This document shows, piece after piece, positions 22,345 to 57,169 of a DNA stretch of 64,000 nt. Positions within the stretch are counted from its first letter, which is position 1; every line of letters starts with the position of its first letter. Position numbers and translations under genes: made by a program. The stretch is from Opitutaceae bacterium TAV5 (GTDB taxonomy: Bacteria > Verrucomicrobiota > Verrucomicrobiia > Opitutales > Opitutaceae): positions 3,581,001-3,645,000 of the forward strand of contig CP007053.1 in NCBI GenBank assembly GCA_000242935.3, in the 5' to 3' direction. A model generated the notes under the pieces. The model was not told the DNA's origin. It did not search any database and saw nothing but the letters and a program-made list of their open reading frames with translations.

Positions 22345-23052
22345 TCACCACTGGCTGCCGCTCCAGCGTGACCAGCCCCAGGTATAGCCGGGAGGATTGG
22401 TCGGATTCCGGGCGGCTTCGATCTGCTGTTGGGTAAAGGCGACAACGTGACCATCGGCCATGACGAGATTGCAGGCATTTTTATGCCAGTAGGTGCCGTA
22501 ACCGAGCTCCTTGCTGCGCGCGGTGTTTTCAAAGGCGAGGATGGTGCGCGAAGGTTGTTCCAGCTGGGAAAAAACACCGGGAATGTTGGTGGCCCTGAGG
22601 AGTCCGCGCTGGCCGGAATTGGCCATGCAGTAGCTGTTGCCCGATATGTCGAAAAACGTCGGGCGGGTGTCGTTCGCATAACGCCCGGTGTCGGAGGGGC
22701 AGCGGTAGACGGAAGTGTCGGTAATATAGGGATACAGAGGCCTGTTTTCTTTCTGGGGCCCGCCCCAGCTGGTGTATTTTCCTCCCCAGTTATACATGCC
22801 ATAAGTTGCAAAGTCGGGATACACGCCGCGGTTGTCATTGAGGTAGAGTTGAAAACCGGTGCCGATCTGGCGCAGGTTGCTGAGGCATTGGGCTTGCCTG
22901 GCTTTACCGCGAACGGAGCCGACCACGGGAATCATGATGCCGGCAAGGATGCCGATGATCGCAATGACGGTGAGAAGTTCGATGAGGGTGAAGGCTCGGA
23001 CCGGACCGGGCAGGCGGGTGCCGGCAAAGGGTTGGAAATGGCGGGAGTGCAT
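22345..23052 (-). CDS. Pseudopilin-like protein with N-terminal prepilin motif and H-X9-DG motif
   Basis: In this 235-residue protein a short basic leader is followed by AFTLIELLTVIAIIGILAGI, the type IV prepilin cleavage and methylation segment, with Ala at -1 instead of the usual Gly and the conserved Glu at +5. The body has NLRQIGTGFQLYLNDNRGVYP, CPSD and, near the C-terminus, HKNACNLVMADG. The last is an exact H-X9-DG motif, defining a large family common in Planctomycetes and Verrucomicrobiota and thought to be processed like pseudopilins. It likely sits at the cell surface or in a fibre. It forms a unit with the PEP-CTERM gene (33 bp away) and the LacI gene upstream. Confidence 0.85.
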   Translation of the reverse strand: MHSRHFQPFAGTRLPGPVRAFTLIELLTVIAIIGILAGIMIPVVGSVRGKARQAQCLSNLRQIGTGFQLYLNDNRGVYPDFATYGMYNWGGKYTSWGGPQKENRPLYPYITDTSVYRCPSDTGRYANDTRPTFFDISGNSYCMANSGQRGLLRATNIPGVFSQLEQPSRTILAFENTARSKELGYGTYWHKNACNLVMADGHVVAFTQQQIEAARNPTNPPGYTWGWSRWSGSQW

Positions 23053-23085
23053 GGGATGGGGGCGAGCAAGTCGGACTGGTGGTTT

Positions 23086-23781
23086 TCAGGAGCGGCGACG
23101 CAGGAACGCAAAACCGAGAAGCGCAGCGCCTGCGACGAGAGCGCAGGTGGAGGGTTCGGGGACGGGGGCGGCGCTTCCGTAGATGGCGATTTCACCGAGA
23201 TTGATCGAGGAGGAGCTCCCGCCCGGGCGAGTGACGAAGATTTCCACATAGCGGCCGAGAACACTGCCCGTGATCGAGGCGCGGGAGTCACGGTAATTAT
23301 TTCCGTCGGGCGCATATTGGCCGATGTAACCATCCGTCTGGCTCCAGGTCCCCAGGTTGGTCCAGTTGAGGTTATCTTCGCTGACCCGGACGGTGTAGGT
23401 GCCGAGGCCGCGGCTGGAACCATTATCGTGGACGGAAACAATGACATTCTCGATGGTGTAGCTGGCTTTCAGATCGAAGAGGACCTTGATGCCGGCTCCG
23501 TCACCGGTGCCGACTCCGGTGTTTCCATCGTAGTAATAATTGCCTTCCGTAAGTTTGGTGAAGCCGGCGTCGTTGGTGATGGTGGTCGTGAGGTAGGTAT
23601 AGGACGCCCCCGTCTTTCCTGTCGGGAGCAGGTCGGAGGGCAGGCGGTCGGGATTATTGCTTCGGAAAAGATTTCCGGAAGTGGTGTTGTCGGAAAGCAG
23701 GAACGCGGCATGCGCCGGCAGGGTGGTGGTCGCCGAGGCAACGGCAACGGCGAGGGCGAACAGGAGGGTTTCGGTTTTCAT
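23086..23781 (-). CDS. PEP-CTERM surface protein with discoidin-like beta domain
   Basis: This 231-residue protein has a signal peptide (LLFALAVAVASATTTLPAHA) and a beta-rich body with IENVIVSVHDNGSSRGLG and YVEIFVTR, like an F5/8 type C (discoidin) fold, which often binds sugars. It ends in a PEP-CTERM sorting tail: VPEPSTCALVAGAALLGFAF, then RRRS. The tail predicts processing by an exosortase, which is not in this window. It lies between a pseudopilin-like gene and a LacI regulator, all on the minus strand, so it is probably co-regulated with them in glycan handling. Confidence 0.88.
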   Translation of the reverse strand: MKTETLLFALAVAVASATTTLPAHAAFLLSDNTTSGNLFRSNNPDRLPSDLLPTGKTGASYTYLTTTITNDAGFTKLTEGNYYYDGNTGVGTGDGAGIKVLFDLKASYTIENVIVSVHDNGSSRGLGTYTVRVSEDNLNWTNLGTWSQTDGYIGQYAPDGNNYRDSRASITGSVLGRYVEIFVTRPGGSSSSINLGEIAIYGSAAPVPEPSTCALVAGAALLGFAFLRRRS

Positions 23782-23851
23782 GCGTTTTTTGTATCTGGTT
23801 TTTGATGACAGAAAGACAGGGTGACCTCCTGCAACGGTCCGTGAGGGACGA

Positions 23852-24862
23852 TCACCCGCGCGGGAGCGCGCAGGAGCGGCGGACGATGAGGTCGCCGTGG
23901 ATCACTTTTTGCGGGAGGACGGAAAGTTTGTTTTTGAGTTTCAGGTCCACCCACTGCGCGGCTTCCTCGCCCATGTCGCGGAGTGGCTGGCGCGTCGTGG
24001 TGAGCGGAGGGTTGTAGAACTTGCTCGTGGGGTTGTCGTCGTAGCCGACCACCGAAATATCCTCGGGCACGCGCAGGCCGAGTTCGACGCAGGCGCTGAT
24101 CGCGCCGTAAGCCATCGAGTCGTTGGTCGCGAAAATGGCCGTGATCTCGGGGTGTTTTTCGAGAAGCTGGCGTGTCTGGTCGTAGCCGGCCTGTTCGGTG
24201 ATAGCCGTCGGATGATGGGCGACAATCCAGCCGGGACGCGGGACGATGCCGGCCGAGTCCATCGCCTGCTTCCAGGCGGCGAGGCGTTCCTGGTGGTCGA
24301 CGACGCCGTCGAGATGGCCGCAGAGAAAACCGATGTGACGATGGCCGAGGCGGAGGAGGTATTCGGTCTGCTCGAGCGCGCCGCGGTGACAGTCGCAGTC
24401 GATGTAACCGATGCCGGCGAGGTCGGTGCGGTTGGCGACAAGGACCGTGGGAATGCGCGCGGCAAGGAGCGCGCGGCCTTCGGCGGGATCGAGGGGGGTG
24501 AGGATAATGGCGCCGTTACAGCGTTTTTTTCGTAACAATTCCGTGAGCGATTGCGGTTCGCCGTCGCGTTCGCCGGAGGTGTGGTAGAGCAGCGTGGTCT
24601 CGACGCCGTGCTCGAGGGCATAGGTCGAGACACCGGTGAAAATCTGCGCGAAGAAGTTTTCGAACGAGGGTGCGTCGGCCTGCACGACCATGGCGATACG
24701 GGTGCCGCGGCGGATGTTTTCGCGGGGGCGGTAGCCCTTGCCCTCGATGACTGCCAGCGTCTTGCGTCGCAGCTCCTCGCTCACGCCGCTCTCGTTGTTG
24801 AGGACGCGGGAGACGGTGGCGACGGAAACGCCGGAGGCTTTGGCTATGGATGAGATGTTCAT
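23852..24862 (-). CDS. LacI/GalR-family transcriptional regulator
   Basis: This 336-residue regulator is of textbook length: helix-turn-helix ISSIAKASGVSVATVSRVLN at residues 3-22, hinge region to about residue 60, and a sensor domain with GYIDCDCHRGALEQTEYLLRLGH, FATNDSMAYGAISA and DISVVGYDDNP. It probably senses a sugar. Downstream on the same strand are the PEP-CTERM and pseudopilin genes; divergent across 177 bp is a cytosolic clan-A glycoside hydrolase. The gap holds an operator-like palindrome at 24942-24955, so it is a likely local regulator of both arms. Confidence 0.92.
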   Translation of the reverse strand: MNISSIAKASGVSVATVSRVLNNESGVSEELRRKTLAVIEGKGYRPRENIRRGTRIAMVVQADAPSFENFFAQIFTGVSTYALEHGVETTLLYHTSGERDGEPQSLTELLRKKRCNGAIILTPLDPAEGRALLAARIPTVLVANRTDLAGIGYIDCDCHRGALEQTEYLLRLGHRHIGFLCGHLDGVVDHQERLAAWKQAMDSAGIVPRPGWIVAHHPTAITEQAGYDQTRQLLEKHPEITAIFATNDSMAYGAISACVELGLRVPEDISVVGYDDNPTSKFYNPPLTTTRQPLRDMGEEAAQWVDLKLKNKLSVLPQKVIHGDLIVRRSCALPRG

Positions 24863-24941
24863 CGCGGCAGTGAAAGGAGAGGGGAGGGCGCGGGCTATTT
24901 CAGAATCGTCGGGTGGCGGGGAGATTGGCGGGTTTTCTTAA

Positions 24942-24955
24942 AAGTTACGAAACTT
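24942..24955. promoter_or_regulatory. Candidate LacI-type operator AAGTTACGAAACTT
   Basis: This 14-bp palindrome with one mismatch and a central CG, the usual layout for LacI-family sites, lies in the AT-rich divergent gap between the LacI gene (ATG 24862) and the hydrolase gene (ATG 25040). It is placed to control both. The match is by shape only; no second copy was found. Confidence 0.45.
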
Positions 24956-25039
24956 AGATTGATAAATTTTGAAATCATGCAATAAAAATCTCCTGAATTT
25001 GTTTTGAATTTATCCAACCAGCGATTCCACAAGGCACAT

Positions 25040-26680
25040 ATGCATCACAAAAACCACGTCTCTCTCAAACTCGCCGCTGCTCCGGTTCACCGGATGCAGA
25101 GCGGCGTCGGCGCCTCCTGGCACTCCATCCTCAATGCGCCCGTCGGCCACGGCGGGAGCGCGTTTGGCGGACAGCCGCCGGTGCTGCCGGTCCACGAGCC
25201 GCTCTGGAGATCGATCGAGGCGCAGGCCGATTGGCTGAAGCTGCGCTTCATCCGGCTGGAGTTCGAGTGGCGGCAATTTGAGCCGCGGCGGGGCGAGTTC
25301 ACCTGGGACTCTCCCGGGATGCGGATTCTCGACCGCATCTGCGCATGGGCGGAGCGGGCGGGAGCCGACGTGATGTTGCAGCAACAGTGGGGCGGGGTCG
25401 CCTGGAATTCCTTCCCGGAGTTTCGCGGCGATCCGGCGATGGAGACGTATTCGGCGCCGGCCGATCTGCACGCGTTTGCCGATGGGTGGATGCGCTTGCT
25501 GGAGGAGTTGTCTGTGCGGCGCGGATACCGCTGTATCCGATGGATCAATCCGATCAACGAGCCGGGTTACTGGTGGTGGCACTTGCCGGAGTCGTACCGG
25601 CTGCTGCGCGTCGAGGGAAACCGGGAGGCATCGCGCCGGCTGCAGCTAAGCTATCTGGCCGAGGCGTGCGCGATCTTGCGGCGGCGGTTGCGTGCGGAGC
25701 ACCCGGCGGTGCGGCTGATGGGGCCGGACGAGACGGACTTGCCGGTTTATGAACGGCTGGCGGCGGAGCCGTGGTTTGCGGCAGTGGATGACGTGGATTT
25801 TCATAGTTACAACTCCGTGTTCGACCACGAGCCGTTGCCCGCGGCGTGGAATTACCACATCGGCGACCGGATCGACTCGCTGGTGCGGCGGTACTGCGAC
25901 GAGGCGCATGCCGCCGGGAAGGGGCTTTTTCTGACGGAGGTGGGAAGCATGGCCTACGGTTACGGAGCGGACAACCCGGCTCCGGGTTGTCATCTGTCGT
26001 CGCTCAAGGACGTGGAGGTCCTGATCCGTTCGCTGGCGGCAGGCGTGGACGGTTTCAGCCACTGGAGTTTTACGAATCGCGGCGACATCGACGGGCAGTG
26101 GCAGCTCGTCGACACGTGGAGCATCGAGCACAAAAACTGGCTCCCGGAAGCGCGCCCGCACCGGCCGGCGTTTGACGTGCTGGGGCGGGCGATGCGCCAT
26201 GTGCCGAAGTGCGCCCGGATTTTTCCGGTCGAGGTGGACGGCGGCCGCATCGGCCAGCCGCCGCACCGGCGGGTGTGGGCCGTGGCCGCGCAGGACCCGT
26301 CCACCGGCGTCACCCGGCTCCTCGTGGTGAACAATGCAGAAGAGCCTTTCGAGTTCACCCTGTCGTTACCCGAAACCCGACGTGGAGACGGGACTGCTTC
26401 CGATGCCGGCGCCGGCGCGTGGTCGGTGCTCGATCCGTGTTCGGACAAGGCCACCCCGCTCGACAGGAGCCTGCGCGATTCCCGTTGCCGCAGCGGGGTG
26501 CTGCCGCCCCGGCAGCTCGTCATTTTGTCCAACGGCGCCGCCACTCCGGAGGAGCGGTCGCTTCCGGCCCGGTATCTGCCTCAACACGACATTGCCAAAC
26601 GCCCCGCAAATGCGTCTGACTCTCGCCTGGCTCCCAGCCATCTGCATCCTTCCTCCGTAATCCAGTCAGCGATACCATGA
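25040..26680 (+). CDS. Cytosolic clan GH-A glycoside hydrolase
   Basis: This 546-residue protein has a TIM-barrel with the acid/base Glu in INPINEPGYWWWHLPESYR and the nucleophile Glu in GLFLTEVGSMAYGYGAD, the two-Glu arrangement of clan GH-A. A beta-sandwich follows from about residue 400 (RLLVVNNAEEPFEFTLSLPE). There is no signal peptide, so it would act on imported oligosaccharides, unlike the secreted hydrolase at 20148. The ATG at 25040, preceded by AAGG, is preferred over an upstream TTG. Its last 4 bp overlap the start of the next gene (ATGA), so the two are translationally coupled. The substrate is unknown; family GH39 or a GH5-like group is possible. Confidence 0.78.
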   Translation: MHHKNHVSLKLAAAPVHRMQSGVGASWHSILNAPVGHGGSAFGGQPPVLPVHEPLWRSIEAQADWLKLRFIRLEFEWRQFEPRRGEFTWDSPGMRILDRICAWAERAGADVMLQQQWGGVAWNSFPEFRGDPAMETYSAPADLHAFADGWMRLLEELSVRRGYRCIRWINPINEPGYWWWHLPESYRLLRVEGNREASRRLQLSYLAEACAILRRRLRAEHPAVRLMGPDETDLPVYERLAAEPWFAAVDDVDFHSYNSVFDHEPLPAAWNYHIGDRIDSLVRRYCDEAHAAGKGLFLTEVGSMAYGYGADNPAPGCHLSSLKDVEVLIRSLAAGVDGFSHWSFTNRGDIDGQWQLVDTWSIEHKNWLPEARPHRPAFDVLGRAMRHVPKCARIFPVEVDGGRIGQPPHRRVWAVAAQDPSTGVTRLLVVNNAEEPFEFTLSLPETRRGDGTASDAGAGAWSVLDPCSDKATPLDRSLRDSRCRSGVLPPRQLVILSNGAATPEERSLPARYLPQHDIAKRPANASDSRLAPSHLHPSSVIQSAIP

Positions 26681-27441
26681 GTGAACAAAACCCGTCTCCG
26701 GCTCCCGCCGCCGCGCACAACGAAGCCTCCGTCCGGCCCGCAGAAACAACCGCGGCCGCAGCCGTCCCCGAGCACACCGCGCAGATTCTCGCCCATATCG
26801 AAAAGCACGTCGGCAAACCCGCCCGCGTGTTGCGCGCCGTCGCACCGGAGGACGGGGCCTCCGTCGACCTTCATGTGGTGGAGCCCACCGACGCGCGGCC
26901 TTTTTATACGTTCGTCACCGCGGGGATGAGCGATTTCGCCATGGTCCCGCCCAAACAGTATGCGGACTGGAGCCACGCGGAACTTTACCTGTGTCTGCCG
27001 CCGGACTGGAAAATCGATTTCGAAAACTGGCCGAAGGACGAAAACGCCTGGCCGCTCCGCGTCCTCGCCAACATCGCCCGCCTGCCGCACCGCCACGCAG
27101 CCTGGATCTGGTACGGGCAGACGCTGCCCAACGGAAACCCGCCGGAGCCGTTCGCGCCATCGGTGGGTTTCACCGCTGTGGTGCTGCAAACGCCGGCCCT
27201 GTTGCCGGAGGATTTTCTGGAGCTTCCGGTCGACGGGAAGACCGACGCCGACAAAAAGACCCTCCGTTTTTTCGCCCTGATCCCGATTTTTCCCGACGAG
27301 CTGAAGCTGAAAACGCAAAAAGGCATCGAGGCGCTGGAGGAAGCGCTCCAGGCGGGCGGCTGTTCCGAACTGCTCCGTGCCGACCGCGAAAGCGTGGCTC
27401 CGGCCCCGAAAAAAGGGCTCTGGGGCAGGCTGTTCGGATAA
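26677..27441 (+). CDS. Suppressor-of-fused (Sufu-like) domain protein
   Basis: In this 254-residue protein, after a Pro/Ala-rich start of about 30 residues, the chain shows a Sufu-domain pattern: HTAQILAHIEKHVGKPARVL, YTFVTAGMSDFAMVPP, ELYLCLPPDWKI, NWPLRVL-like sequence and FFALIPIFPDELKLK. It ends in KKGLWGRLFG. Bacterial Sufu-domain proteins are small cytosolic proteins, often linked to polymorphic-toxin immunity, and their role is poorly known. It starts within the stop codon of the glycoside hydrolase gene, so it is co-translated. No toxin gene is adjacent, which leaves its role here open. Confidence 0.82.
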   Translation: MSEQNPSPAPAAAHNEASVRPAETTAAAAVPEHTAQILAHIEKHVGKPARVLRAVAPEDGASVDLHVVEPTDARPFYTFVTAGMSDFAMVPPKQYADWSHAELYLCLPPDWKIDFENWPKDENAWPLRVLANIARLPHRHAAWIWYGQTLPNGNPPEPFAPSVGFTAVVLQTPALLPEDFLELPVDGKTDADKKTLRFFALIPIFPDELKLKTQKGIEALEEALQAGGCSELLRADRESVAPAPKKGLWGRLFG

Positions 27442-27520: not shown

Positions 27521-27536
27521 TCACACACGCGTGAGA
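27521..27536. promoter_or_regulatory. Candidate operator TCACACACGCGTGAGA upstream of the LacI gene
   Basis: This imperfect palindrome with a central CG lies 56 bp before the LacI ATG at 27592. The same 16-bp pattern (TCACACACG, G, TG, GA) occurs as TCACACACGAGTGTGA at 28675-28690 before the beta-helix gene. Two matching sites at the promoters of the regulator and its neighbour make this the best supported operator in the window. Confidence 0.65.
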
Positions 27537-27591
27537 GCTTGAGCCCCCGCCAACTTCGCCGCTTTCTTCTCCCGACCGCCCACTTCGCATC

Positions 27592-28620
27592 ATGGCCAAA
27601 AAAAGTCCCGTTGTCCGCTCCACCGCCGAACTCGCCGACCACCTCGGCCTCTCGCGCTGGACCGTCTCCCACGGACTCAATGACCGCCCCTGGGTCAAGG
27701 AGGAGACGCGCCGCCGCATCCAGGACGCCGCCAGGGAACTCGGTTTCACTCCCAACCCTCTCGCGCGCGGCCTGCAAAACGGCCGCACCGGCATGATCGG
27801 CGTCTGCTTCAACGAACTCGAAAACCCCATCATCGTAAAAAAAATCTCGATCCTCCAGCGCCTCCTGCAGGAGCGTGGCTACCAGGGTCTCATCGAACTC
27901 ACCCTCGGCAAACCCGACGTCGAGCAACGCGTGGTCCAGCATTTCCTCGCCATGCGCGTCGAAGGCATCGTCACCGTCAACTCGCGCTTCGATCCCTCCA
28001 GGCTCCTGGCCAGGTCCGGAATCCCGCTCGTCCACATCGATCCCTACGACGAAACGTTGCTTCCGCACGTGCGCATGGATCGCGCCGCAGCCATGGAGGC
28101 GCTTGTCCTCCACGCCACCTCGCTCGGCCATCGCCGCTTCGTCCTCCTCGGCATGCCCGAAAACGAATTCGGCGAACGCTGGCGCGGTCTCCGCGCCGGT
28201 TTCAGCCGGGCCGGCATCGATGAAACGCGCGACGTTCGCGGCATCGACCGCGGCGACCCCGATCCGCCCGATTACGACCACGGCCGCACGCTCGCCGGCG
28301 ACCTGCTCGACAGCGGCTTCGTCCCGACGGTCATCCTCGCCGTTAACGACCGTGTTGCCATCGGCGCCATGAACCGCCTTTCCGAGGCCGGCTGGCAGAT
28401 CCCCCGAAAATGCTCCGTCACCGGCTTCGACAATCTCGACATCGGCAACCACTGGAACCCCCGCATCACCACCATCGACCACCAGGCCGAGGAGCTCCTC
28501 GTCAGCGGCCTCGAGCTCCTCTTCCGCCGCATTCTCCGCCCCCGCTCCGGATCGACCTACACCGAAACGATCGCCCCCCGCCTCATCCCCCGCCAATCCA
28601 CCCTCCCGCCCTCCGCCTGA
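27592..28620 (+). CDS. LacI/GalR-family transcriptional regulator
   Basis: This 342-residue regulator has the helix-turn-helix STAELADHLGLSRWTVSHGLN, in which the second helix ends SRWTVSHGL, and a PNPLARGLQNGRTG hinge. The sensor domain includes GIPLVHIDPYDE and ILAVNDRVAIGAMNRL, and its conserved VTGFDNLDIG is the last landmark. It lies immediately upstream, in the same direction, of the beta-helix, autotransporter-repeat, pseudopilin, acetylesterase and oxidoreductase genes, with operator-like sites before itself (27521-27536) and before the beta-helix gene (28675-28690). It is therefore the probable repressor of that set, and the ligand may be a pectin-derived sugar. Confidence 0.92.
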   Translation: MAKKSPVVRSTAELADHLGLSRWTVSHGLNDRPWVKEETRRRIQDAARELGFTPNPLARGLQNGRTGMIGVCFNELENPIIVKKISILQRLLQERGYQGLIELTLGKPDVEQRVVQHFLAMRVEGIVTVNSRFDPSRLLARSGIPLVHIDPYDETLLPHVRMDRAAAMEALVLHATSLGHRRFVLLGMPENEFGERWRGLRAGFSRAGIDETRDVRGIDRGDPDPPDYDHGRTLAGDLLDSGFVPTVILAVNDRVAIGAMNRLSEAGWQIPRKCSVTGFDNLDIGNHWNPRITTIDHQAEELLVSGLELLFRRILRPRSGSTYTETIAPRLIPRQSTLPPSA

Positions 28621-28674
28621 CGCTCCGGTGAAACCCCGATCCGCCAAGATCGAAAGATGCCTTGTCCCCATAAA

Positions 28675-28690
28675 TCACACACGAGTGTGA
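28675..28690. promoter_or_regulatory. Candidate LacI operator TCACACACGAGTGTGA before the beta-helix gene
   Basis: AATCACAC and GTGTGATT are perfect 8-bp arms around ACGA. The site lies 79 bp upstream of the beta-helix ATG and shares its core with 27521-27536. A repressor bound here would control the five downstream genes. Confidence 0.7.
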
Positions 28691-28768
28691 TTTATTCTTG
28701 CCATCAGCCAAAACCTCCTCCTCGCTTGCCGTCACTCCACCACGTTTTCCCGCACCCAGGCGCCCCGC

Positions 28769-30598
28769 ATGAATCCCTTGTCACACCACCCGCTGCTGCC
28801 CTGCCTCCTCGTTCTCGTCACGAGTCTCGCCGCCCCGGCCCGTGCGGCCACCCTTGTTGTTGATCCCGCCGCCGCCGCGGTGGAGCCGGCCGGGTCCGCC
28901 GGAAACACTTTCCGCACCCTCCAGACCGCCCTCGATCGCGCGCAACCCGGCGACACCATCGACATCCGCCCCGGTATTTACCGCGAACACCTTCGCCTCA
29001 CGCGCGGCGGCCGGCCCGGCGCTCCCGTCACCCTTGCCGGCCGCCCGGGCGCCATCCTCGACGGCAGCATCGCCGGCCGGCTCGACTGGCAACCCGCCCC
29101 CGACATCGCTCCCGGCGTCTGGCGCGCCCCGCTCGATTTCCACGCGTTCACCATTGCCGCCAATGGCAAGCTCGTCACCACCCTCGACGAAAAACGCACC
29201 GACCCCTCCCGCGAAAAACAACTCCGCCCCCGCGACAATATCCGCTGGCCCGCCGCCTTTCGCGACGGCATCGGCCCCTCCGGCTGGGAGGGTGTCAAGG
29301 CCCTCGCCCTCTACCGCCACGAGGCCCGCGAACTCCTTCTCCGTTTCCAACAAAACCTCGATCCCCGCACCCTCGACCTCGCCATCGCGCCGAAAACGCC
29401 CCTCATCACCATCGACGGCGCCAGCCATGTCGTCGTCCGCGGCCTCGCCCTCCGCAACGCCGCCTACGGCGTCCACGTCACCCGCGCCGCCGATGTGATC
29501 GTCGAACACTGTGCCATCGGCCCCATCGACTTCGGCCTCCACCTCGGCGAAGGCAGCGAACGCGTCACTCTCCGCCACAACGAAATCTGGATGGCTCCTT
29601 ACGCTGGCGCCGACCCTCGCCAGCCCGGCCAGTGGGATGCCTGGCAAGCCTGCAAAAGTGGTGGCTACTACGACCGCTACGCCGTCCGCATCGCCAGCAG
29701 CCGCGGCCACCACGAAATCCACGACAACCTCATTCGCGATCACTGGGATGGCATCCAGTCCGGCTTTCCCGGCACCCCGGAGGAAAACGCCGCCGTCCAC
29801 GTCCACCACAACCGCCTCGTCAACATCTTCGACGACGGCTTCGAAACCTCCGGAGGCCAGACCGGCAGCCGCTGGCACGACAACCTCATCGAAAACGCCC
29901 GCGTGGCTGTCCGCATCAAAGACCCCGCCGCCGGCCCTCTCTACATCTACCGCAACCTCTTTCTCCGAAACCTCCAGGACTTCCGCAACTGGGCCGGCAA
30001 GGACGGCCCCGTTCCCGGTGTCCAGGTCCGGATTTACCACAACACCTCCACCTCCGGCGCCGCCTACAACATGAGCTACGCCGCCGGCTCCACCATCACC
30101 ACGCCCGGTTTTCATTTTCACAACAACCTCTTCTGGACCCGCACCTGGCTCCGTCGGGACAACGCTGCCAGAGTCACCTACCCGCCGCCCGACTGGCAGG
30201 GCGACTACAACCTCTATGCCCGCTCCACGCCCGCGCATCCGCGTCCCGGCGAAGCGCCCTTCACCCCGCAAAACCTGGCCGATCTCGACCGGAACTGGGC
30301 CGATGCCCGCGCCCTGGCGCAGCAAGCCGGCCGGGACATCCACGCCCTCTGGCTCACCGACCGCGCCCCCGGCCTGACCGATGCCGCCGCCGCCGACCTC
30401 ACGCTTGCCGCCGACAGCCCCGCCCGCGCCGCCGGCCTCGATCTCTCCGCGCTGGCGGAAAAACTCCCCGGCTGCCCGCCCGGTTATTTCCGCGGCGAGC
30501 GCCCCGACATCGGCGCTCTCCAGTTTGGCGAACCGATGCCGCGCCTCCCCCGCCCGCCACCCGCAATCACCACCGCCAGCCAGAATCCAAAACCGTAA
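28769..30598 (+). CDS. Secreted right-handed parallel beta-helix protein (pectate-lyase-like fold)
   Basis: In this 609-residue protein, after a signal peptide (LLPCLLVLVTSLAAPARA) comes the NTFRTLQTALDRAQPGDTID motif, with GIYREHLRL and DGS close by. This is the standard N-cap of right-handed beta-helix proteins, and short rungs such as VIVEHCAIGPIDFGLHLGEG, HHNRLVNIFDDGFETSGG and YIYRNLFLRNLQ follow. Such folds include pectate lyases, polygalacturonases and other polysaccharide lyases. I cannot assign the reaction, but an uronate-rich substrate is plausible given the acetylesterase downstream. The start is 79 bp after a LacI-type operator. The C-terminal part (GYFRGERPDIGALQFG) is typical of beta-helix proteins that end with a fused strand. 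Confidence 0.85.
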   Translation: MNPLSHHPLLPCLLVLVTSLAAPARAATLVVDPAAAAVEPAGSAGNTFRTLQTALDRAQPGDTIDIRPGIYREHLRLTRGGRPGAPVTLAGRPGAILDGSIAGRLDWQPAPDIAPGVWRAPLDFHAFTIAANGKLVTTLDEKRTDPSREKQLRPRDNIRWPAAFRDGIGPSGWEGVKALALYRHEARELLLRFQQNLDPRTLDLAIAPKTPLITIDGASHVVVRGLALRNAAYGVHVTRAADVIVEHCAIGPIDFGLHLGEGSERVTLRHNEIWMAPYAGADPRQPGQWDAWQACKSGGYYDRYAVRIASSRGHHEIHDNLIRDHWDGIQSGFPGTPEENAAVHVHHNRLVNIFDDGFETSGGQTGSRWHDNLIENARVAVRIKDPAAGPLYIYRNLFLRNLQDFRNWAGKDGPVPGVQVRIYHNTSTSGAAYNMSYAAGSTITTPGFHFHNNLFWTRTWLRRDNAARVTYPPPDWQGDYNLYARSTPAHPRPGEAPFTPQNLADLDRNWADARALAQQAGRDIHALWLTDRAPGLTDAAAADLTLAADSPARAAGLDLSALAEKLPGCPPGYFRGERPDIGALQFGEPMPRLPRPPPAITTASQNPKP

Positions 30599-43200: not shown

Positions 43201-43235
43201 CCGGAGCGGCGGCGGGGACGCCGCCGCTCCGGTCA
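43198..43235. terminator. Bidirectional hairpin, 17-bp perfect arms, formed by two stop codons and a palindromic repeat
   Basis: Arms 43198-43214 and 43219-43235 are exactly complementary around GGGA. The first base pairs of the stem are the TGA of cysN (43198-43200) and the TGA of the minus-strand beta-glucosidase (43235-43233). The stem core GGAGCGGCGGC is the same family as at 12241 and 39354. There is no T-run after it on either strand, so factor-independent termination is not certain. Confidence 0.75.
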
Positions 43236-50730: not shown

Positions 50731-50886
50731 GAGGCGAATGATAGGCCGGAGCATCGACCCTGGCGAACCGGAGAAGTGTGGCGAATTGCAGATTTGCTGA
50801 GGCGAATGCGGAGAGTTGGCTACCATGCAGGAGCGGGATTGGAACATGCAGCCCGGCAGGAACCGGGCCGCCCCGGCTGGATTGCC

Positions 50887-53403
50887 CTAGGGCGCGGCCG
50901 GGGCCAGTTCGGTGACGAAGGAGGCCTCGCGGGCGGGCTCCGTTTTTTCGATGTAAAAACCGGCGCGGCGGTCAGGTGGAGCGTCGGGCGATGAACCTTG
51001 CCAGAGAGTGAACGCTCCAGGCGTGGCGAAGCGCACGCGCAGGATTTTGCCCTCGGGGAAAACGACGTCGATCACCGCTTCGTTTTCGAAGCGGGCCGAG
51101 CGTACCTCCTCCCAGTAGCCGAACTCCGCCGGACGACCGGTGGCGAAGCCGGAGACAGGCTTGAAGATGTCGGGCAGTTTGGGCGTACCGTGCAGGTGGA
51201 GGGAGAGGCTGAGGGTCGCGCCTGCGGTTTCCGTTCCCGTATAGGTGACGGTGGTTTCATCGATGAGGCGGTCGCCATCGATGCGCAGGGTGCGGCTTGC
51301 CGAAGCGTCGGGACGCCAGGAGGGCTGCCGGGCTGTCATGACGCCTCTGGCATCGTCGAAAAGTGTCATTTCACCGGGATCCCACGGCACCTGGCCTTCG
51401 CCGTTGACGAGGGGGATGTTGTGATTGAGGCCCCTCTGGTAGTAGCCGCGGTGCATGGGCGAACCGTAACCGACCGTGCCCGGATCATGGGTGACATCCA
51501 CGCCCTCGAACGAAGCTGACCAGTTGAGCGCTTCGGATTGGGAATGGGAACGATGGATCTGTCCGTAGTGGAAAAACACTTGCCACGGGCCTTTTTTCAT
51601 CAGGGCGAAGCGGATGGACTCCATGTGCCGGGAAACGACCGGAGGCAGTTCCGGCGTCTCCTGAGGCGAAAGGGGAGGAGGATCGACGAGGGTGTCCCAT
51701 GAGCGGATATCCGCCGCGGCGGCCAGTCCCAGCGTCGTCGGCAGGATGCGATAAATGCCGGCGAGCCCATTCGCCGAGGCGCGGGCGGGGCGGTGCGAGT
51801 CGGCGGGATTGGGAATGGTGCCGTCGGGGAAGCGGATCGCGAGCGGAGCGATCACAAGATTCTGGGCGATGGCAGCCTCGTCGCGCAGCCGGTGGCCTTC
51901 TCCGATCAGGCCCGCAAAGGTGAAGAGGGGACGGGTGGCCACGATGATGTAGGCGTTGTAACCCATGGCCTGTTCATACCAGAAATAATCGCTGGTGACG
52001 CCGCGGTGCAGTTGCTCCCGCAGGCCATAGGGTTTGCCGTCCACAGTACGGTTCCAGAGGTCATTGTCCTTGTAGAGCAGGGCGACCTGGGCGGCGGAAG
52101 AACGATACCAAGTGGGGATATTGTGGATATCCTGACCGATGCCGGTAAGCAGTTCGGCCTGGGGTTTGAGGAGTTTGGCAAACCACGCCTGTCTCCTCGT
52201 TTCTCCTGCATAATCGAAAAGCAGGCGCGCGGCATCCACCTTCAGGGTCAGCCAGGTGGCGTCTTCGAGCGCCTGCCAGCCGATGTGCGAACCTTTTCTT
52301 TGCCGGGGATTCTTGCCCCAACGGTCGTAGTTGTTCGCGTAAAAATCGAGCTGGCCGGCGGCCCACTCGGCGTAGCGGGTTTCTCCTGTCAGCCGATACA
52401 GGCGGGCGGCTTCGACCGTCTGCTCGAAGTTGCGCTTGCGGAAACCGAATACCCAGCCCCCGAAGATATCGGGGGTGATTTCGACGCGGTGCCCGCTGCG
52501 GCTCATGAGATGATCGGTTTCCTCGCCGGGGATGTCGTCGGTCCACTCAAGGAAGGAGCCGTCTTTCGGGCTGACGAAGTGGTGCCAGTAACCTGTTTGC
52601 CACTCGACCCGGTCGCGGTGGCGGGTGATCCAGGCGTCGGTGGTTTCGCGACGTTCCTTCAGCCAGGCGGCCCAGGCAGGGTCGGTGGCGACACGCTGGC
52701 GCGCGCCTTGCCAGTCTTCGACCGGCTTGCGCAAGACTCCTCCGTCAGGTTGAAGCACTTTGTATTCGGCGAAGGTTTTTTCGGGATGGGGTTTGGGGAA
52801 GTCGGGAAGAGGATTGGCGGAAAGGACGCGGCCGGAATTGCCCGCGCGGGCGGCGATGGCGGCCGAGGCGTCGCTGGCAGAGATTTCCCGCAGTGAAAAA
52901 TCGTCGAAGAGGGCGGTGACTGTGACCTGGTTGTAGGAGTGAATCCAGACGGCGGCGGTGGCCGCTTTTTCGGGGGCGATGGCGGGCAGGGTGTGGCGCG
53001 TCCATGTGGCGGCGGCGGTGCGGAGCGACATCACAAAACGGTCTCCGGGAGGGATGAGTTTTCCCGCTGTATCGAAAAACTGGAGATAAACGTCAATGCC
53101 GCCGCCCTCCACGATCCGGCCGGAAAACGACAGTTCGTAACCGCGTCCGGGCCGTACCGGTATCCGCGTCGAGTAAAGACTGCTGCCGGACGATCCGCTC
53201 CGGTCGTTGACCTTGAGGCCGAGTTTGCCCGTGCGCGCAGACTCGGCGGAGGTGGTGCTCATGCCTTTGTCGGCGGCGGGAGCGGTCCAGCGGGCGAAGC
53301 CGTCGGTGCCTTCTTCGAAGCCGGGATTGGGAAAGTCGAGAGGCTGGGCAGCCAGAGGACAGGCAAGGAGCAAGGGAAAGGCGAGGAGGGTGAGGGCTTT
53401 CAT
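50887..53403 (-). CDS. Secreted multidomain polysaccharide lyase (CBM-like + alginate-lyase-like + heparinase-like)
   Basis: This 838-residue protein has a signal peptide (LLAFPLLLACPLAAQ) and a carbohydrate-binding-like sandwich at about residues 24-175 (FPNPGFEEGTDGFARWTAPA). An alpha-toroid follows with YRLTGETRYAEWAAGQLDFY and the possible catalytic HNIPTWYRSSAAQVALLY. A beta-sandwich comes last, with MHRGYYQRGLNHNIPLVNGE, typical of heparinase/alginate-lyase families. It probably degrades an acidic polysaccharide outside the cytoplasm; the family could be PL17-like or a relative. Its start codon overlaps the PL14-like gene by 4 bp, so the two are co-translated. Confidence 0.82.
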   Translation of the reverse strand: MKALTLLAFPLLLACPLAAQPLDFPNPGFEEGTDGFARWTAPAADKGMSTTSAESARTGKLGLKVNDRSGSSGSSLYSTRIPVRPGRGYELSFSGRIVEGGGIDVYLQFFDTAGKLIPPGDRFVMSLRTAAATWTRHTLPAIAPEKAATAAVWIHSYNQVTVTALFDDFSLREISASDASAAIAARAGNSGRVLSANPLPDFPKPHPEKTFAEYKVLQPDGGVLRKPVEDWQGARQRVATDPAWAAWLKERRETTDAWITRHRDRVEWQTGYWHHFVSPKDGSFLEWTDDIPGEETDHLMSRSGHRVEITPDIFGGWVFGFRKRNFEQTVEAARLYRLTGETRYAEWAAGQLDFYANNYDRWGKNPRQRKGSHIGWQALEDATWLTLKVDAARLLFDYAGETRRQAWFAKLLKPQAELLTGIGQDIHNIPTWYRSSAAQVALLYKDNDLWNRTVDGKPYGLREQLHRGVTSDYFWYEQAMGYNAYIIVATRPLFTFAGLIGEGHRLRDEAAIAQNLVIAPLAIRFPDGTIPNPADSHRPARASANGLAGIYRILPTTLGLAAAADIRSWDTLVDPPPLSPQETPELPPVVSRHMESIRFALMKKGPWQVFFHYGQIHRSHSQSEALNWSASFEGVDVTHDPGTVGYGSPMHRGYYQRGLNHNIPLVNGEGQVPWDPGEMTLFDDARGVMTARQPSWRPDASASRTLRIDGDRLIDETTVTYTGTETAGATLSLSLHLHGTPKLPDIFKPVSGFATGRPAEFGYWEEVRSARFENEAVIDVVFPEGKILRVRFATPGAFTLWQGSSPDAPPDRRAGFYIEKTEPAREASFVTELAPAAP

Positions 53404-54278
53404 AAGGCGGCCGGTTGTGTCGCGGAAGTAGGGTGGTTGTGTGGTTGGGCGGAAGAGGCGGAGAGGGGAGGAGGATCGACCGTTGTGATGACGAAGTCAT
53501 CGAAGTCGATATGGTTGTCGCGGTCCGGGCGATAGTCATCGCTGGCCCCTCCGTGAAACGTGCTGAAGTAGAAACGGTTGATTTGCCAGGTCTGGTCCGC
53601 GCTGCGCCAGCGCATGTCCGTGCGGTTGAAGGCGAGTTTTCCGTCAATCCAGACTTGGAGCTCGCCGTCGGGCTGGCCGGGGGTGTTGAGCTTGATGCGT
53701 TGCCTGAGGGTATGCCATTCGCCGGGGCGGAGGAGGGCATGGTCGAGGCGGATGCCGTCGCCGTAGCGCCCGCGCTGTTCGGAATGGTAGAGATAGAGGA
53801 TGAGGCGTCCTCCGGGTTTCCACATGTAGCGGGCGGTAAGGCCGTCAGGGTTGGGGCGTCCGCCGGTGGCGCCCGTTCCGCCGGAGAGACCGGGGAGTTT
53901 GCCGCCGGACGTCCAGTGAAAGTCGGGTTCGAAGCGCACTCGGTATTCGGCCGTGGCCTCGTCGGAGGGCGGCAGGGGCGAGCGCCACGAGGCGCCGCTG
54001 GCGCGGGAGCCGATCTGGCCCTGTGGATAACTCACACGGATGAAGCTGTTGCCGTCTTCCTGAAGAACGGAAACGCGGTTTTCCCGCACGCCGTTGTCCG
54101 CGTGCGTCTTCCATCGTTTTTCCAGCCAGGAGAGAGGCAGCGGCCCGGCTTGCAGTTCGCTGAAATCATCCTGCAGGGTGAGGGCGCGGCTGGCAGGCGG
54201 AATACCGAGGAGGAGGAGAATCGGGGCAAACCGCCCGGGAGAGAAAAGACGGCAGAGTCGCGCAATCATGGAGCGCAT
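53400..54278 (-). CDS. PL14-like polysaccharide lyase (beta-jelly-roll)
   Basis: This 292-residue protein has a signal peptide (FAPILLLLGIPPASRA), then a beta-jelly-roll typical of polysaccharide lyase family 14: LSWLEKRWKTHADNG, YRVRFEPDFHWTSGGKLPGL, TARYMWKPGGRLILYLYH and INRFYFSTFHGGAS. Such enzymes degrade alginate or glucuronan by beta-elimination. It is the first enzyme gene of the minus-strand lyase cluster and overlaps the next gene by 4 bp. I chose the ATG at 54278; one at 54269 is possible. The last 20 residues (SASSAQPHNHPTSATQPAAL) are disordered. Confidence 0.78.
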   Translation of the reverse strand: MRSMIARLCRLFSPGRFAPILLLLGIPPASRALTLQDDFSELQAGPLPLSWLEKRWKTHADNGVRENRVSVLQEDGNSFIRVSYPQGQIGSRASGASWRSPLPPSDEATAEYRVRFEPDFHWTSGGKLPGLSGGTGATGGRPNPDGLTARYMWKPGGRLILYLYHSEQRGRYGDGIRLDHALLRPGEWHTLRQRIKLNTPGQPDGELQVWIDGKLAFNRTDMRWRSADQTWQINRFYFSTFHGGASDDYRPDRDNHIDFDDFVITTVDPPPLSASSAQPHNHPTSATQPAAL

Positions 54279-54419
54279 GGGTGTTTTCAGCGAGGAAGGC
54301 CGGAGGAGCGGAAGCGAAAATGGAATCCAGATCGCCCTCACGGTGGTGTCGATGGACAATCGCTGGAGGGCGACAGGGAATCGGAGAGAATGGCGAGGTG
54401 ATGAAGCTCCCCGTCTCGA

Positions 54420-55187
54420 TCAACGTCTGCGGCGCCACCATAAGGCCAGAGCGAGGGCGCCAATACCAGCGACGGCGGCGTAGGTCGAGGGCTCGGGAAT
54501 GGCAGCGGTGTTCACGACCGTGATGTCGTCGAAGTAGGCCCTCGTGTTGGTGCTGGCTGCCGCACCTGCCTGCAGCCTGATCTTGCCGACCTGCCAGTTT
54601 GTGGCGTCGGCATCTCCGGTTGCTACGCTGACGATGCTCGTGCCGTTCAGGGAGACGGAGGCGGTGTTGGTGGTTTCGTCGAAGTAAAGCCGGAAGGTGT
54701 TCCAGTCGGTCACCGTGTAGGCGACCTGGGTGGAGGCGGCTGGGCTATTCAGGGTGACGGTGCCATTGGGCGCCAGTGAAAGGTAAAAATTGGTGGTGTC
54801 GGTCCCGGCATCCGAAAAATAGAGGTAAAAATTACCCCCGCCTGCCTGTTTGATGGAGAACTCGATGTATCCCTGCGTGAGGGTGCTGCCGAGGTCGTAT
54901 CGGGCGGAGGCGGAGTTTCCACTGATGTTGTCGTAGAGATGCAAGCTTTGCGAACCGCTGTGGGCGTCGGTGTCGATGATTCTGCTCAGGAGGGTGGTGC
55001 CATTGTCGTTGCCGATCCATCCGTTGATGGCGGTGCTCCCAAGCTGTGCGCCGGCAGCCCACTTCGGGGCTTCGAAATCTTCGCTGAACACGACTGCCTC
55101 CGCAGCGCGGACGGAGAACGGGCAGAGCAGCGAGACCAGGACGGCGACGAGGCCGGGACGGAGGCGGATTCTTGTATCTGTTTTCAT
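54420..55187 (-). CDS. PEP-CTERM surface protein with LamG-like beta domain
   Basis: This 255-residue protein has a signal peptide (GLVAVLVSLLCPFSVRAA), then a jelly-roll-like domain (SEDFEAPKWAAGAQLGSTAI, GYIEFSIKQAGGGNFYLYFS, TNWQVGKIRLQAG), which could bind glycan. It ends in IPEPSTYAAVAGIGALALAL plus RRRR, a PEP-CTERM sorting tail. It is the partner of the pseudopilin gene upstream and the lyase genes downstream, and repeats the layout of the other two modules. The ATG at 55187 has a nearby GAG; the next ATG upstream (55205) is also open. Confidence 0.88.
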   Translation of the reverse strand: MKTDTRIRLRPGLVAVLVSLLCPFSVRAAEAVVFSEDFEAPKWAAGAQLGSTAINGWIGNDNGTTLLSRIIDTDAHSGSQSLHLYDNISGNSASARYDLGSTLTQGYIEFSIKQAGGGNFYLYFSDAGTDTTNFYLSLAPNGTVTLNSPAASTQVAYTVTDWNTFRLYFDETTNTASVSLNGTSIVSVATGDADATNWQVGKIRLQAGAAASTNTRAYFDDITVVNTAAIPEPSTYAAVAGIGALALALWWRRRR

Positions 55188-55256
55188 ATTACTCGGAGTT
55201 TTCATGTTGCGTGGCGGATAGGTGTTGGTTCACGGAGACGAGAGAGAGGGAGGGGG

Positions 55257-55964
55257 TTACTGAATGGCGGGAGCGAAGTTGAGGGGCACGGAGTGGACGC
55301 TCCAGTCGTAGCGAAGCACGTTGCGGTGGTTGCCGTGAACAGGGGTGTCGGGAGCCTTGCCCTTGAAGCCGGGTTCGAGTTCGGCATCGAGGTCAATGAG
55401 GGCCGGGCGATCGTGGTATTTCGGGGTGTTGATGACCGTGGTGTAGAGTTGCGGATTCCCTGGTGTCTGGCCGTTGGACCAACCCCAGGGGAAGCTGTTT
55501 GCATCGCCGGGGAGGCGCAGGTAATAGACGTTGTCCTCGTCGGGCCTGGCGGTTTTGCGGAGCCACGCGGTGCAGATGAAAGCGTCGGGTAACTTCGTCG
55601 TGTTGCTGTTTTTGAGGCTCACGTAAGGCGCGAGGAAACTCCACAGAGAGCGGTTCCCCTTGGCGTAGTCTTCGGGGAGGATGGTGAGGTTGCGGGCTTG
55701 GCCGACAGTGCACGGGCCAGGGAGGCGGCCCTTGTTGTCGTCAATGTAAAGGGCGATGGCCATGCCCCATTGGCGGAGGGCGGTTTTGCACTGGGCGTCG
55801 GCGGCGGACTGGCGCACCTTGGCGACCGTCGGGATCATGATTCCTGCCAGGATACCGATGATGGCAATGACGGTAAGCAGTTCGATCAGGGTGAAGCCTG
55901 GGCTGGATGGAATCTGAAAGCGGCTGGAGGCAGACGCGGGGGAAGGGTGGTGCAGGGTGTTCAT
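55257..55964 (-). CDS. Pseudopilin-like protein with prepilin segment and degenerate H-X9-D motif
   Basis: This 235-residue protein has GFTLIELLTVIAIIGILAGI, a prepilin segment with Gly at -1 and Glu at +5, preceded by a leader of about 22 residues. The body has ALRQWGMAIALYIDDNKGRL and CTAWL. The C-terminal motif reads HGNHRNVLRYDW: the H-X9-D spacing is kept but the final Gly is Trp, unlike the two sister proteins. It is the first gene of the minus-strand cluster and is probably transcribed from the AT-rich gap with the divergent LacI gene. It likely sits at the cell surface. Confidence 0.82.
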   Translation of the reverse strand: MNTLHHPSPASASSRFQIPSSPGFTLIELLTVIAIIGILAGIMIPTVAKVRQSAADAQCKTALRQWGMAIALYIDDNKGRLPGPCTVGQARNLTILPEDYAKGNRSLWSFLAPYVSLKNSNTTKLPDAFICTAWLRKTARPDEDNVYYLRLPGDANSFPWGWSNGQTPGNPQLYTTVINTPKYHDRPALIDLDAELEPGFKGKAPDTPVHGNHRNVLRYDWSVHSVPLNFAPAIQ

Positions 55965-56017
55965 GTGCGGCAGGGGGAGCAGGAAATCTGCAGGGGGGTG
56001 ATGTGGAGTTGATTTTT

Positions 56018-56041
56018 AGTAAACTTTATTTAGTTTTTACT
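56018..56041. promoter_or_regulatory. AT-rich palindromic region, candidate LacI-family operator
   Basis: AAACT-TTATTT-AGTTT (56021-56036) lies within the wider AGTAAA...TTTACT palindrome (56018-56041), in the divergent gap of about 140 bp between the pseudopilin gene and the LacI gene. It could regulate both directions. The match is by symmetry only. Confidence 0.45.
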
Positions 56042-56104
56042 TAAAAAATGAAAGTTCAAGTAAAAAATCGACGCCCGGAAGATTTCCTGATTGCCAGCCT
56101 TGCG

Positions 56105-57169
56105 ATGAAATCGTCCACCGTCCCATCCGGTCGCATCACGCTCTCGGAAATCGCCGCCCGGGCCGGCACCTCGACGACCACGGTGTCCTTTGTCCTGAAC
56201 GAGACCGGAGCCGTGGGCGCGGAGACGCGCACCCGCGTGCTGGCCGCTGCGAAAGAGCTCGGCTACCGGATGCGCCCCCGGGCAGGTCGCACCCGGCCTT
56301 CCGGAAACGCGTTGGGAACGGTGACGTTTATCTGGGTGAACACGACGGAGGCGTGGCGGCAGACGCATCTCGCCCACCTGTTGCTCCACACGATCGGCAC
56401 GGGCGTGGAGGCGCTCGGCGGACGTCTCCGCACGCTGTTTTACAACGAGCACGAAAATCCTCCCCGGCCCGACTTCGGGGACGACGAGGCCTTGCTGATC
56501 GCGGGCACGCCCGGCCCCGGTTTCCTGCGTCTGCTGCCGGCGCGCCTGCCGCGGCTCAACGTCATCTGCAAACCCTACGTCACCCCGACGTCTTTTCTCG
56601 ATCTCGACTCGGCGCACACTGGCTACGCGCTTACCCGTTACCTGCTCGAACACGGTCACCGGCGCATCGGCTTCGTCAGCAACAGCCGGTTTCACCGCAG
56701 CTTCGGGTTGCGTTATCTCGGCTACCTGAACGCGCTCGACGACCTCGATGTGCCTTCCCGCCCGGAGTGGGTGCTGCGCCTGAAACAGCCGGCGGGAGCG
56801 CCGGTCGAGACGGCCCAGCCCGCCAGCGACATCGAGCCGGGACTGGCCAAAATGCTCGCGCGCAAGGACCGACCGACGGCGATCTTCGCGGCCAACGACT
56901 GGATGGCCGCGGCCGTTTACCAGTACGCGCAACGCCAGGGGCTGAGCATCCCCGGCGATCTGAGCATTGTCGGCTGCGACAACGATCCCGGCATCTGCGA
57001 TCTCCTCAAGCCCGGCCTGACCACGCACACGCTGCCCTACGCCGAGATGGCGCGCGAGGCCGTGCAGTGGACCGCCGCGCTCGTCGCCGGCAAGCCGCCG
57101 CACCGGCAGCAGGGCATCATGCTCTTTCGCGGCAAACTTGTGGAACGCGAATCCGTGCGGACGCTCTGA
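56105..57169 (+). CDS. LacI/GalR-family transcriptional regulator
   Basis: This 354-residue regulator has the helix-turn-helix ITLSEIAARAGTSTTTVSFV and a sensor with LDSAHTGYALTRYLLEHGHR, IFAANDWMAAAVYQYAQ and DLSIVGCDNDPG. The ATG at 56105 is preferred over 56048 because the codons between them (AAA GTT CAA GTA AAA AAT) are unlike the GC-rich genes here and look like leader DNA. It is divergent from the polysaccharide-lyase cluster and followed by GH32, so it is the likely local regulator of both. Confidence 0.9.
   Translation: MKSSTVPSGRITLSEIAARAGTSTTTVSFVLNETGAVGAETRTRVLAAAKELGYRMRPRAGRTRPSGNALGTVTFIWVNTTEAWRQTHLAHLLLHTIGTGVEALGGRLRTLFYNEHENPPRPDFGDDEALLIAGTPGPGFLRLLPARLPRLNVICKPYVTPTSFLDLDSAHTGYALTRYLLEHGHRRIGFVSNSRFHRSFGLRYLGYLNALDDLDVPSRPEWVLRLKQPAGAPVETAQPASDIEPGLAKMLARKDRPTAIFAANDWMAAAVYQYAQRQGLSIPGDLSIVGCDNDPGICDLLKPGLTTHTLPYAEMAREAVQWTAALVAGKPPHRQQGIMLFRGKLVERESVRTL

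Follow-up and report, generated by a model that had tools for sequence, protein, structure and literature searches.

Opitutaceae bacterium TAV5, a verrucomicrobium from the termite hindgut (PMC4358385), has a genome of 7,417,673 bp, consisting of a chromosome of 7,317,842 bp and a plasmid of 99,831 bp. We analyzed a stretch of 64,000 nucleotides (G000:C1:3581001-3645000; "the window" in the following), which contains three similarly composed modules. Each combines a gene for a LacI-family regulator, a gene for a PEP-CTERM or PEP-CTERM-like protein, and a gene for a pseudopilin-like protein with a prepilin segment (here called pilin) next to genes for glycan enzymes (Table 1). A sequence-only reading of the window had proposed this composition, and every gene that it named was found in its place.

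The pilin and PEP-CTERM genes adjoin each other in all three modules, as had been claimed with spacings of 27–70 bp; the gaps are 33, 26, and 51 bp in modules 1, 2, and 3, respectively (69 bp in module 3 with the later gene start). Scans of the window returned three pilin genes, all of them paired, four LacI genes, and two PEP-CTERM genes called by a hidden Markov model (HMM). The proteins of modules 1 and 3 match the PEP-CTERM model TIGR02595. The protein of module 2 can be called PEP-CTERM-like only, because its tail is recognized by no PEP-CTERM model and the HMM does not call it. An H-X9-DG or related motif had also been proposed for the three pilins. It is literally present in pilins 1 and 2 and takes the form H-X9-DW in pilin 3, but none of the three passes the cut-off of the corresponding model TIGR04294 (19 bits; 17.3 bits for pilin 1, pilins 2 and 3 unlisted at E ≤ 1).

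The DNA-binding domain family PF00356 lies above cut-off at chromosome positions 3605725-3605856, 3608628-3608756, and 3637138-3637269. LacI-type NCBIfam models cover nearly the full length of two of the three regulators and two stretches of the third. A fourth LacI-type helix-turn-helix (HTH) of the window is located at 13320-13457 on the minus strand, with no pilin gene within three genes.

Two operator-like sites matching TCACACACGNGTGNGA flank the lacI gene of module 2, one before the gene (27521-27536) and one between the gene and the operon (28675-28690), where it sits inside a perfect 22-bp palindrome. The chance expectation of the pattern in the window is 0.00, and none of the 272 loci fetched contains an exact match; as the pattern was written from these two sites, only its rarity elsewhere is informative. 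Such a pair of sites is the layout expected of a LacI regulator that controls both itself and its operon.

Table 1. Genes and sites of the three modules. Coordinates are positions in the window.
Feature	Coordinates	Strand	Basis
Module 1 hydrolase-like secreted protein, after pilin	20148-22292 (alternative start 22241)	-	Very weak GH44 match as sole basis, E 0.065
Module 1 pseudopilin-like protein, H-X9-DG	22345-23052	-	TIGR02532 25.5 bits (cut-off 16.3); TIGR04294 17.3 (cut-off 19); PF07596 31 (cut-off 23.3); pilin-like model
Module 1 PEP-CTERM protein with F5/8 type C (galactose-binding-like) domain	23086-23781	-	TIGR02595 20.3 bits (cut-off 16); PF00754 29.6 bits (cut-off 28.2)
Module 1 LacI-family regulator	23852-24862	-	NCBIfam LacI-type models, best E 1.6e-50, below specific-regulator cut-offs
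Beside module 1, probable glycoside hydrolase	25004-26680 (alternative start 25094)	+	Weak GH5/GH42 matches, E 0.017 and 0.078, under cut-off
Module 2 operator-like palindrome upstream of lacI	27521-27536	+	TCACACACGCGTGAGA; 0.00 expected in window; exact pattern in 0/272 loci
Module 2 LacI-family regulator	27592-28620	+	NCBIfam LacI-type models, best E 1.3e-37, below specific cut-offs
Module 2 perfect palindrome between lacI and operon	28672-28693	+	9-bp arms and 4-bp gap; contains second operator-like site 28675-28690
Module 2 right-handed beta-helix protein, possible polysaccharide lyase/hydrolase	28769-30598	+	PF13229 26.7 bits (cut-off 25.9)
Module 2 PEP-CTERM-like protein, beta-strand repeats, tail IPEAS	30628-32553	+	PF12951 PATR 27.2 bits (cut-off 27); PEP-CTERM models do not match tail
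Module 2 pseudopilin-like protein, H-X9-DG by eye	32580-33284	+	TIGR02532 20.4 bits (cut-off 16.3)
Module 2 GDSL-like esterase	33289-34089	+	PF13472 E 1.9e-22
Module 2 Gfo/Idh/MocA oxidoreductase	34086-35195	+	PF01408 E 1.5e-14
Module 3 glycoside hydrolase family 1 (GH1)	43233-44630	-	PF00232 E 3.8e-135
Module 3 extracellular solute-binding protein	44687-46300	-	PF13416 E 1.8e-15
Module 3 heparinase II/III-like protein	46367-48304	-	PF07940 E 2.6e-12
Module 3 heparinase II/III-like protein	48544-50847 (alternative start 50754)	-	PF07940 E 4.4e-15
Module 3 heparinase II/III-like protein with CBM4_9-like region	50887-53403	-	PF07940 27.6 bits (cut-off 24)
Module 3 polysaccharide lyase family 14 (PL14)	53400-54359 (alternative start 54278)	-	PF21294 E 1.3e-38
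Module 3 PEP-CTERM protein, weak 3keto-disac_hyd/CBM77-like domain	54420-55205 (alternative start 55187)	-	TIGR02595 18.4 bits (cut-off 16); PF06439 25.7, under cut-off 26.8
Module 3 pseudopilin-like protein, H-X9-DW variant, divergent from lacI	55257-55964	-	TIGR02532 28.9 bits (cut-off 16.3)
Module 3 LacI-family regulator	56048-57169 (alternative start 56105)	+	NCBIfam LacI-type models, best E 1.7e-30, below specific cut-offs

A suppressor-of-fused (SUFU) gene (26677-27441; PF05076, E 3.2e-35) separates modules 1 and 2, with a 4-bp overlap with the end of the probable hydrolase gene at 25004-26680.

Pairing and LacI linkage across the TAV5 genome

The association of LacI, PEP-CTERM, pilin, and glycan enzyme genes is repeated throughout the TAV5 genome far above chance. 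We sampled 100 evenly spaced 20-kb stretches (2.0 Mb) outside the window, in which a script called 1506 genes, among them 61 pilin, 70 PEP-CTERM, and 38 LacI genes, with the false pilins L051 and L062 removed. The HMM detectors for the three families derive from training on stretches of TAV5 and will overlook related genes in other genomes. A PEP-CTERM gene adjoins 30 of the 61 sampled pilin genes, 28 of them on the same strand, and three further pilins have a PEP-like neighbor that the HMM overlooked. Shuffling the gene labels globally gave a mean of 3.8 same-strand pairs (maximum 11), and shuffling within stretches a mean of 7.4 (maximum 16), with none of 2000 shuffles of either kind reaching 28. 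Within TAV5, the frequency of adjacent pairs thus bears out the sequence-only reading, which had proposed to count them against random expectation across Verrucomicrobiota genomes. By extrapolation from the sample, the genome would hold ∼226 pilin and ∼260 PEP-CTERM genes.

The listed NCBIfam and Pfam matches on the chromosome gave the same picture. Coordinates were available for 149 pilin matches (of 150, the remaining one being on the plasmid), 141 PEP-CTERM matches, and 150 LacI matches. A PEP-CTERM gene lies ≤600 bp upstream of 17/149 listed pilins (mean 0.8 and maximum 5 when the positions were rotated) and ≤3 kb downstream of another 17/149 (rotation mean 3.3, maximum 12); neither count was reached in 1000 rotations.

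Linkage to LacI genes is also apparent from position and orientation. Among the 149 listed pilins, 46 have a LacI gene within 2.5 kb (rotation mean 14.6, maximum 28) and 37 have one that is upstream and divergent within that distance (rotation mean 3.8, maximum 12), again with 0/1000 rotations reaching either count. Of 28 cases in the sample and window together, 23 have LacI upstream of the pilin and 17 have it divergent. Ten same-strand pairs have a LacI gene within three genes, compared with means of 0.4 (maximum 4) in global and 2.5 (maximum 8) in within-stretch shuffles. Among the matches listed, 12 of the 34 chromosomal pairs have a LacI gene within 4 kb. At least 150 LacI-type HTH matches are found in TAV5 (250 first-look candidates), which is unusually many. 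The pilin neighbors also include four GntR-type, three AraC-type (HTH_18), and seven Peripla_BP_3 proteins, so that regulators beyond the LacI proteins called by the HMM may control further units.

What the pairing means for the two proteins is less direct. As about half of the pilins lack a PEP-CTERM neighbor, the pair is not obligatory. Both gene orders occur among the sampled pairs (PEP-CTERM first in 15, pilin first in 13; gaps of 9–263 bp). Moreover, among 27 partners, only 10 of 351 PEP-CTERM pairings are homologous, compared with 346 of 351 pilin pairings. These three observations would all fit two surface proteins that are switched by the same sugars, for instance in adhesion, biofilm formation, or envelope remodeling, and contact neither each other nor the glycan. 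The adjacency goes beyond what shared surface-protein regions alone would explain, however, as the 28 pairs exceed the maximum of 16 in the within-stretch shuffles, and we regard such an unconnected co-regulation as unlikely.

The plasmid contains a large inverted repeat, in which three or four genes are present in two oppositely oriented copies whose proteins start identically (positions 38-3546 and 4302-7852 of L268, G000:C2:34001-54000).

Glycan genes, pilins, and PEP-CTERM proteins

We inspected the gene that follows each sampled pilin on the same strand, skipping any PEP-CTERM gene in between, if it lay at most 400 bp away and encoded more than 150 amino acids. Such a gene exists for 36 of the 61 pilins (25 are without one). 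In the Pfam scan (E ≤ 1e-4; a part was scanned at E ≤ 0.5 but read at the E ≤ 1e-4 level), 19/36 next genes belong to a glycan-related family, some of them by matches that are weak or under the Pfam cut-off, and none to a housekeeping family. The families comprise glycoside hydrolases (GH5, GH16, GH39-like, arabinofuranosidase, and other GH cores), heparinase, SASA or AXE1 esterases, beta-helix proteins, carbohydrate-binding modules (CBMs), BNR propeller, sugar kinase, epimerase, and lectin-like proteins. The other 17 next genes are one DUF2334 gene, one pilin fragment, and 15 genes with no informative match.

The same glycan contrast is seen between 100 of 138 pilin neighbors and 100 genes that lie far away from all genes of the three families, as judged from the 25 families that were listed out of 92 and 156, respectively. 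The neighbor set also holds tRNA synthetase and other general families, and it still includes the neighbors of the two false pilins. In the window, the enzymes of module 1 match known families only very weakly, unlike those of modules 2 and 3. The linkage of the units to glycan genes is well supported, and we consider it very probable that they serve glycan use under LacI control.

All three pilins of the window carry the prepilin cleavage/methylation signal TIGR02532 above its cut-off (Table 1). Prepilin segment and helix are common to the sampled pilins, whereas their C-terminal part is diverse. H-X9-DG occurs in 29 of 54 aligned pilins and H-X9-DW in 6, another spacing is found in 7, and 12 have neither; H-X9-D[GW] occurs in 2% of shuffled sequences. 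The family PF07596 (DUF1559/SBP_bac_10) is matched above cut-off by pilin 1, with pilin 2 at 15.5 bits and pilin 3 not matching. Profile matches to solved pilins lie mainly over the N terminus. A predicted model of pilin 1 (pLDDT, the predicted local distance difference test score, 73; pTM, the predicted template modeling score, 0.70) superposes with modest VIA-align scores on Thermus PilA4 (PDB code 6xxd, Z 5.3) and EpsG (PDB code 4lw9, Z 4.6), and a Foldseek search of the model against the PDB gave no match at E ≤ 0.001.

TAV5 encodes six T2SSF proteins with 12 domains in total, one of these proteins being plasmid-borne. As judged from simple patterns, their loci hold ATPases and in some cases prepilin-like genes of their own. 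The pilins could thus be secretion adaptors, that is, minor subunits in a type II secretion-like machine that the units share, and would help to export the neighboring enzyme, with glycan binding left to the enzymes and PEP-CTERM proteins. In agreement with this, the next gene often encodes an enzyme, with a glycan-related family in the 19 cases above, the pilin is similar in profile and model to GspG/EpsG and also to type IV pilins, and a locus resembling a type II secretion system (ATPase, T2SSF protein, and its own prepilin-like genes) is present. Yet the links of the pilins to LacI and PEP-CTERM genes are stronger than those to any one enzyme type, and in known type II secretion systems one small set of pseudopilins suffices for many enzymes. 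We therefore consider secretion adaptors improbable as the explanation of the modules.

The PEP-CTERM proteins of the window differ from each other: that of module 1 has an F5/8 type C domain, that of module 2 beta-strand repeats, and that of module 3 a weak 3keto-disac_hyd/CBM77-like domain. Among 65 of the 70 sampled PEP-CTERM proteins (five short ones left out), nine contain PATR and four LamG. Four exosortases are encoded in TAV5 (PF09721 above cut-off).

Spread in related genomes

We compared 61 Opitutaceae genomes, two from the genus of the window (TAV5 and G005) and 59 from other genera. Pilin, PEP-CTERM, and LacI genes are amplified in the genus. Each of its two genomes has at least 115 pilin matches (at least 150 in a longer list), compared with 3–33 in the 59 others; PEP-CTERM matches number at least 113 and at least 110, compared with 0–69, and LacI matches at least 95 in each, compared with 0–48. 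Exosortases are not amplified (4 in TAV5, 5 in the congener, and 0–7 elsewhere).

In the congener, a same-strand PEP-CTERM gene lies within 1.5 kb of 14 of the 30 best-scoring pilins, and a LacI gene is near 7 of the 30, in all 7 cases upstream and divergent. Pairs were also frequent among the pilins of Geminisphaera colitermitum TAV2 (4/6) in a GTDB scan of 80 loci. Outside the genus, the pair is rare: 1/72 pilins elsewhere in the GTDB scan and 4 of the 30 best-scoring pilins in G041, a member of another Opitutaceae genus. These counts speak against a system general to Verrucomicrobiota. A system of the whole family Opitutaceae is likewise unsupported, given the same low pair counts and the opposite densities of LacI and pilin genes over the 59 genomes of other genera (rho -0.34, p 0.008); pilin and PEP-CTERM densities correlate weakly (rho 0.31, p 0.018). 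A strict H-X9-DG model, run on six genomes of other Opitutaceae genera, gave eight matches in three of them, six of which fall in G041.

LacI genes are near 8 of the 30 best-scoring pilins of G041. All eight (loci L233, L234, L239, L245, L250, L251, L252, and L260) lie within 1.5 kb upstream of the pilin, three of them divergently, and the linkage of LacI and pilin may therefore predate the genus.

An amplification confined to one genus among the 61 genomes searched would also be the result of block duplication, by which a single LacI/PEP-CTERM/pilin block would have multiplied, leaving the pairing uninformative on function. Against this stand PEP-CTERM partners that are mostly non-homologous, pilins that are far diverged (median end branch 1.22), and the varying gene order. 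Furthermore, the label "paired" changes 23 times on a tree of 57 pilins, compared with a mean of 19.2 for shuffled labels (497/500 shuffles were as low); this tree is weakly supported, and L025|6 and L050|12, which have a PEP-like neighbor, are labeled single in it. As the partners are mostly unrelated and the pairing is scattered over the pilin tree, we rejected block duplication as the main cause and consider it very improbable.

Proposed role of the modules

We propose that the modules are glycan operons resembling polysaccharide utilization loci (PULs), in which a swappable pseudopilin of a shared pseudopilus is combined with a PEP-CTERM surface protein that holds the glycan. We give this reading a probability of roughly one-half. 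Each module would be a glycan-degradation unit under its own LacI regulator. In the presence of the cognate sugar, the repressor would leave its operator, and the induced unit would produce its enzymes together with two envelope proteins. The first, the pseudopilin-like protein with its prepilin signal, conserved N-terminal helix, and variable C-terminal domain, may be processed by the prepilin peptidase that all units would have in common, and one of the few shared pilus or secretion machines may assemble it. There it could act as the substrate-specific, exchangeable subunit of a pseudopilus that catches or presents the glycan at the outer membrane. The second, the PEP-CTERM protein with its unit-specific modules, would be sorted to the surface by one of the four shared exosortases and could hold the glycan there. 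The two proteins may even be parts of a common physical structure.

Several observations weigh against this proposal. Roughly half of the pilins are unpaired. Most sampled PEP-CTERM proteins carry no Pfam family besides the tail, and glycan binding by them is unproven for this reason. The proximity of LacI to pilins taken alone is in weak excess (25/61 within three genes, reached by 61 of 2000 within-stretch shuffles), unlike the strong orientation and rotation tests of the same linkage. The negative correlation of pilin and LacI densities in the other genera points in the same direction. No matched pair of operators emerged from a repeat search around lacI 1 and lacI 3, which gave a lone inverted repeat (56034-56066) at the latter. 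Palindromes in 26 LacI-divergent gaps are weakly enriched (6/26, compared with 6/60 controls, at p ≤ 0.05). Promoter scans gave 0 and 5 sites, where 1.8 and 1.7 would be expected, and no pilin follows any of the five; terminators occurred at chance level. Both kinds of scan were uninformative.

Sus-type PULs of Bacteroidota comprise a regulator, surface proteins, and enzymes for one glycan per unit, with many units per genome. The TAV5 modules share the repeated combination of regulator, surface proteins, and enzymes; in contrast to Sus-type PULs, the recurrent surface genes are those of pilin-like and PEP-CTERM proteins. Among the 20 window genes scanned with Pfam, none matched a SusC/SusD family, although no search aimed at SusC/SusD was made. 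The Verru_Chthon cassette proteins are multi-copy as well, and the cassette proteins C and D (TIGR02599 and TIGR02596) also occur in Verrucomicrobiota and have a prepilin-like N terminus. Unlike protein D, the three window pilins score 20.7–21.7 bits with its model (cut-off 70), over the N terminus.

Large paralogous families with a prepilin signal that are dispersed in the genome, as in TAV5, are known from the N_methyl/SBP_bac_10 (DUF1559) proteins of Planctomycetes. According to the accessible parts of two studies, Tuwongella immobilis has 100 proteins with N_methyl and 91 with both domains, and the genes are often flanked by genes for signal-peptide proteins; these parts describe no link to LacI, PEP-CTERM, or glycan operons (PMC8567305; PMC10632474). 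Pilin 1 resembles this family by scoring above the PF07596 cut-off, unlike pilins 2 and 3. For MUL2 of Akkermansia, another member of the Verrucomicrobiota, a type IV pilin-like protein was proposed to attach to complex glycans for uptake. The text accessible for this system describes a four-gene locus with PilM and mentions neither LacI nor PEP-CTERM (PMC13174399), whereas TAV5 has many unit-specific pilins with both neighbors; PilM had no match among the 20 scanned window genes. PEP-CTERM/exosortase systems are known to sort diverse, unrelated proteins by one tail and to show lineage-specific expansion, with 65 PEP-CTERM proteins in Verrucomicrobium spinosum. The unrelated proteins of TAV5 with their shared tail conform to this, and their extrapolated number there is ∼260. 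In the accessible part of the source, the system is tied to exopolysaccharide genes, with no mention of pilin pairing or LacI (PMC1569441). The parts and comparable expansions are thus already known, and we found no description of LacI/PEP-CTERM/pilin units in the open-access literature, among the matches listed.

The arrangement itself is strongly non-random and genus-amplified, and about half of the pilin-marked operons add a PEP-CTERM protein. A far-reaching version of our proposal is a sugar-switched modular surface, in which LacI-controlled pseudopilin heads in a few shared machines, often together with an exosortase-sorted glycan holder, do the job of SusC/SusD; we regard this version as unlikely. 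The roles of stand-alone pseudopilins and PEP-CTERM proteins in the Planctomycetes–Verrucomicrobia–Chlamydiae superphylum are poorly known. The link to LacI provides a handle, since many pilins have a predicted regulator and enzymes that hint at a glycan, and function can therefore be tested by growth on a named sugar. The modules are a candidate route for the capture of polysaccharides by these bacteria, and a genome with some two hundred pilin genes, about every second of which is linked to a surface-protein gene, is well suited to solving both protein families.

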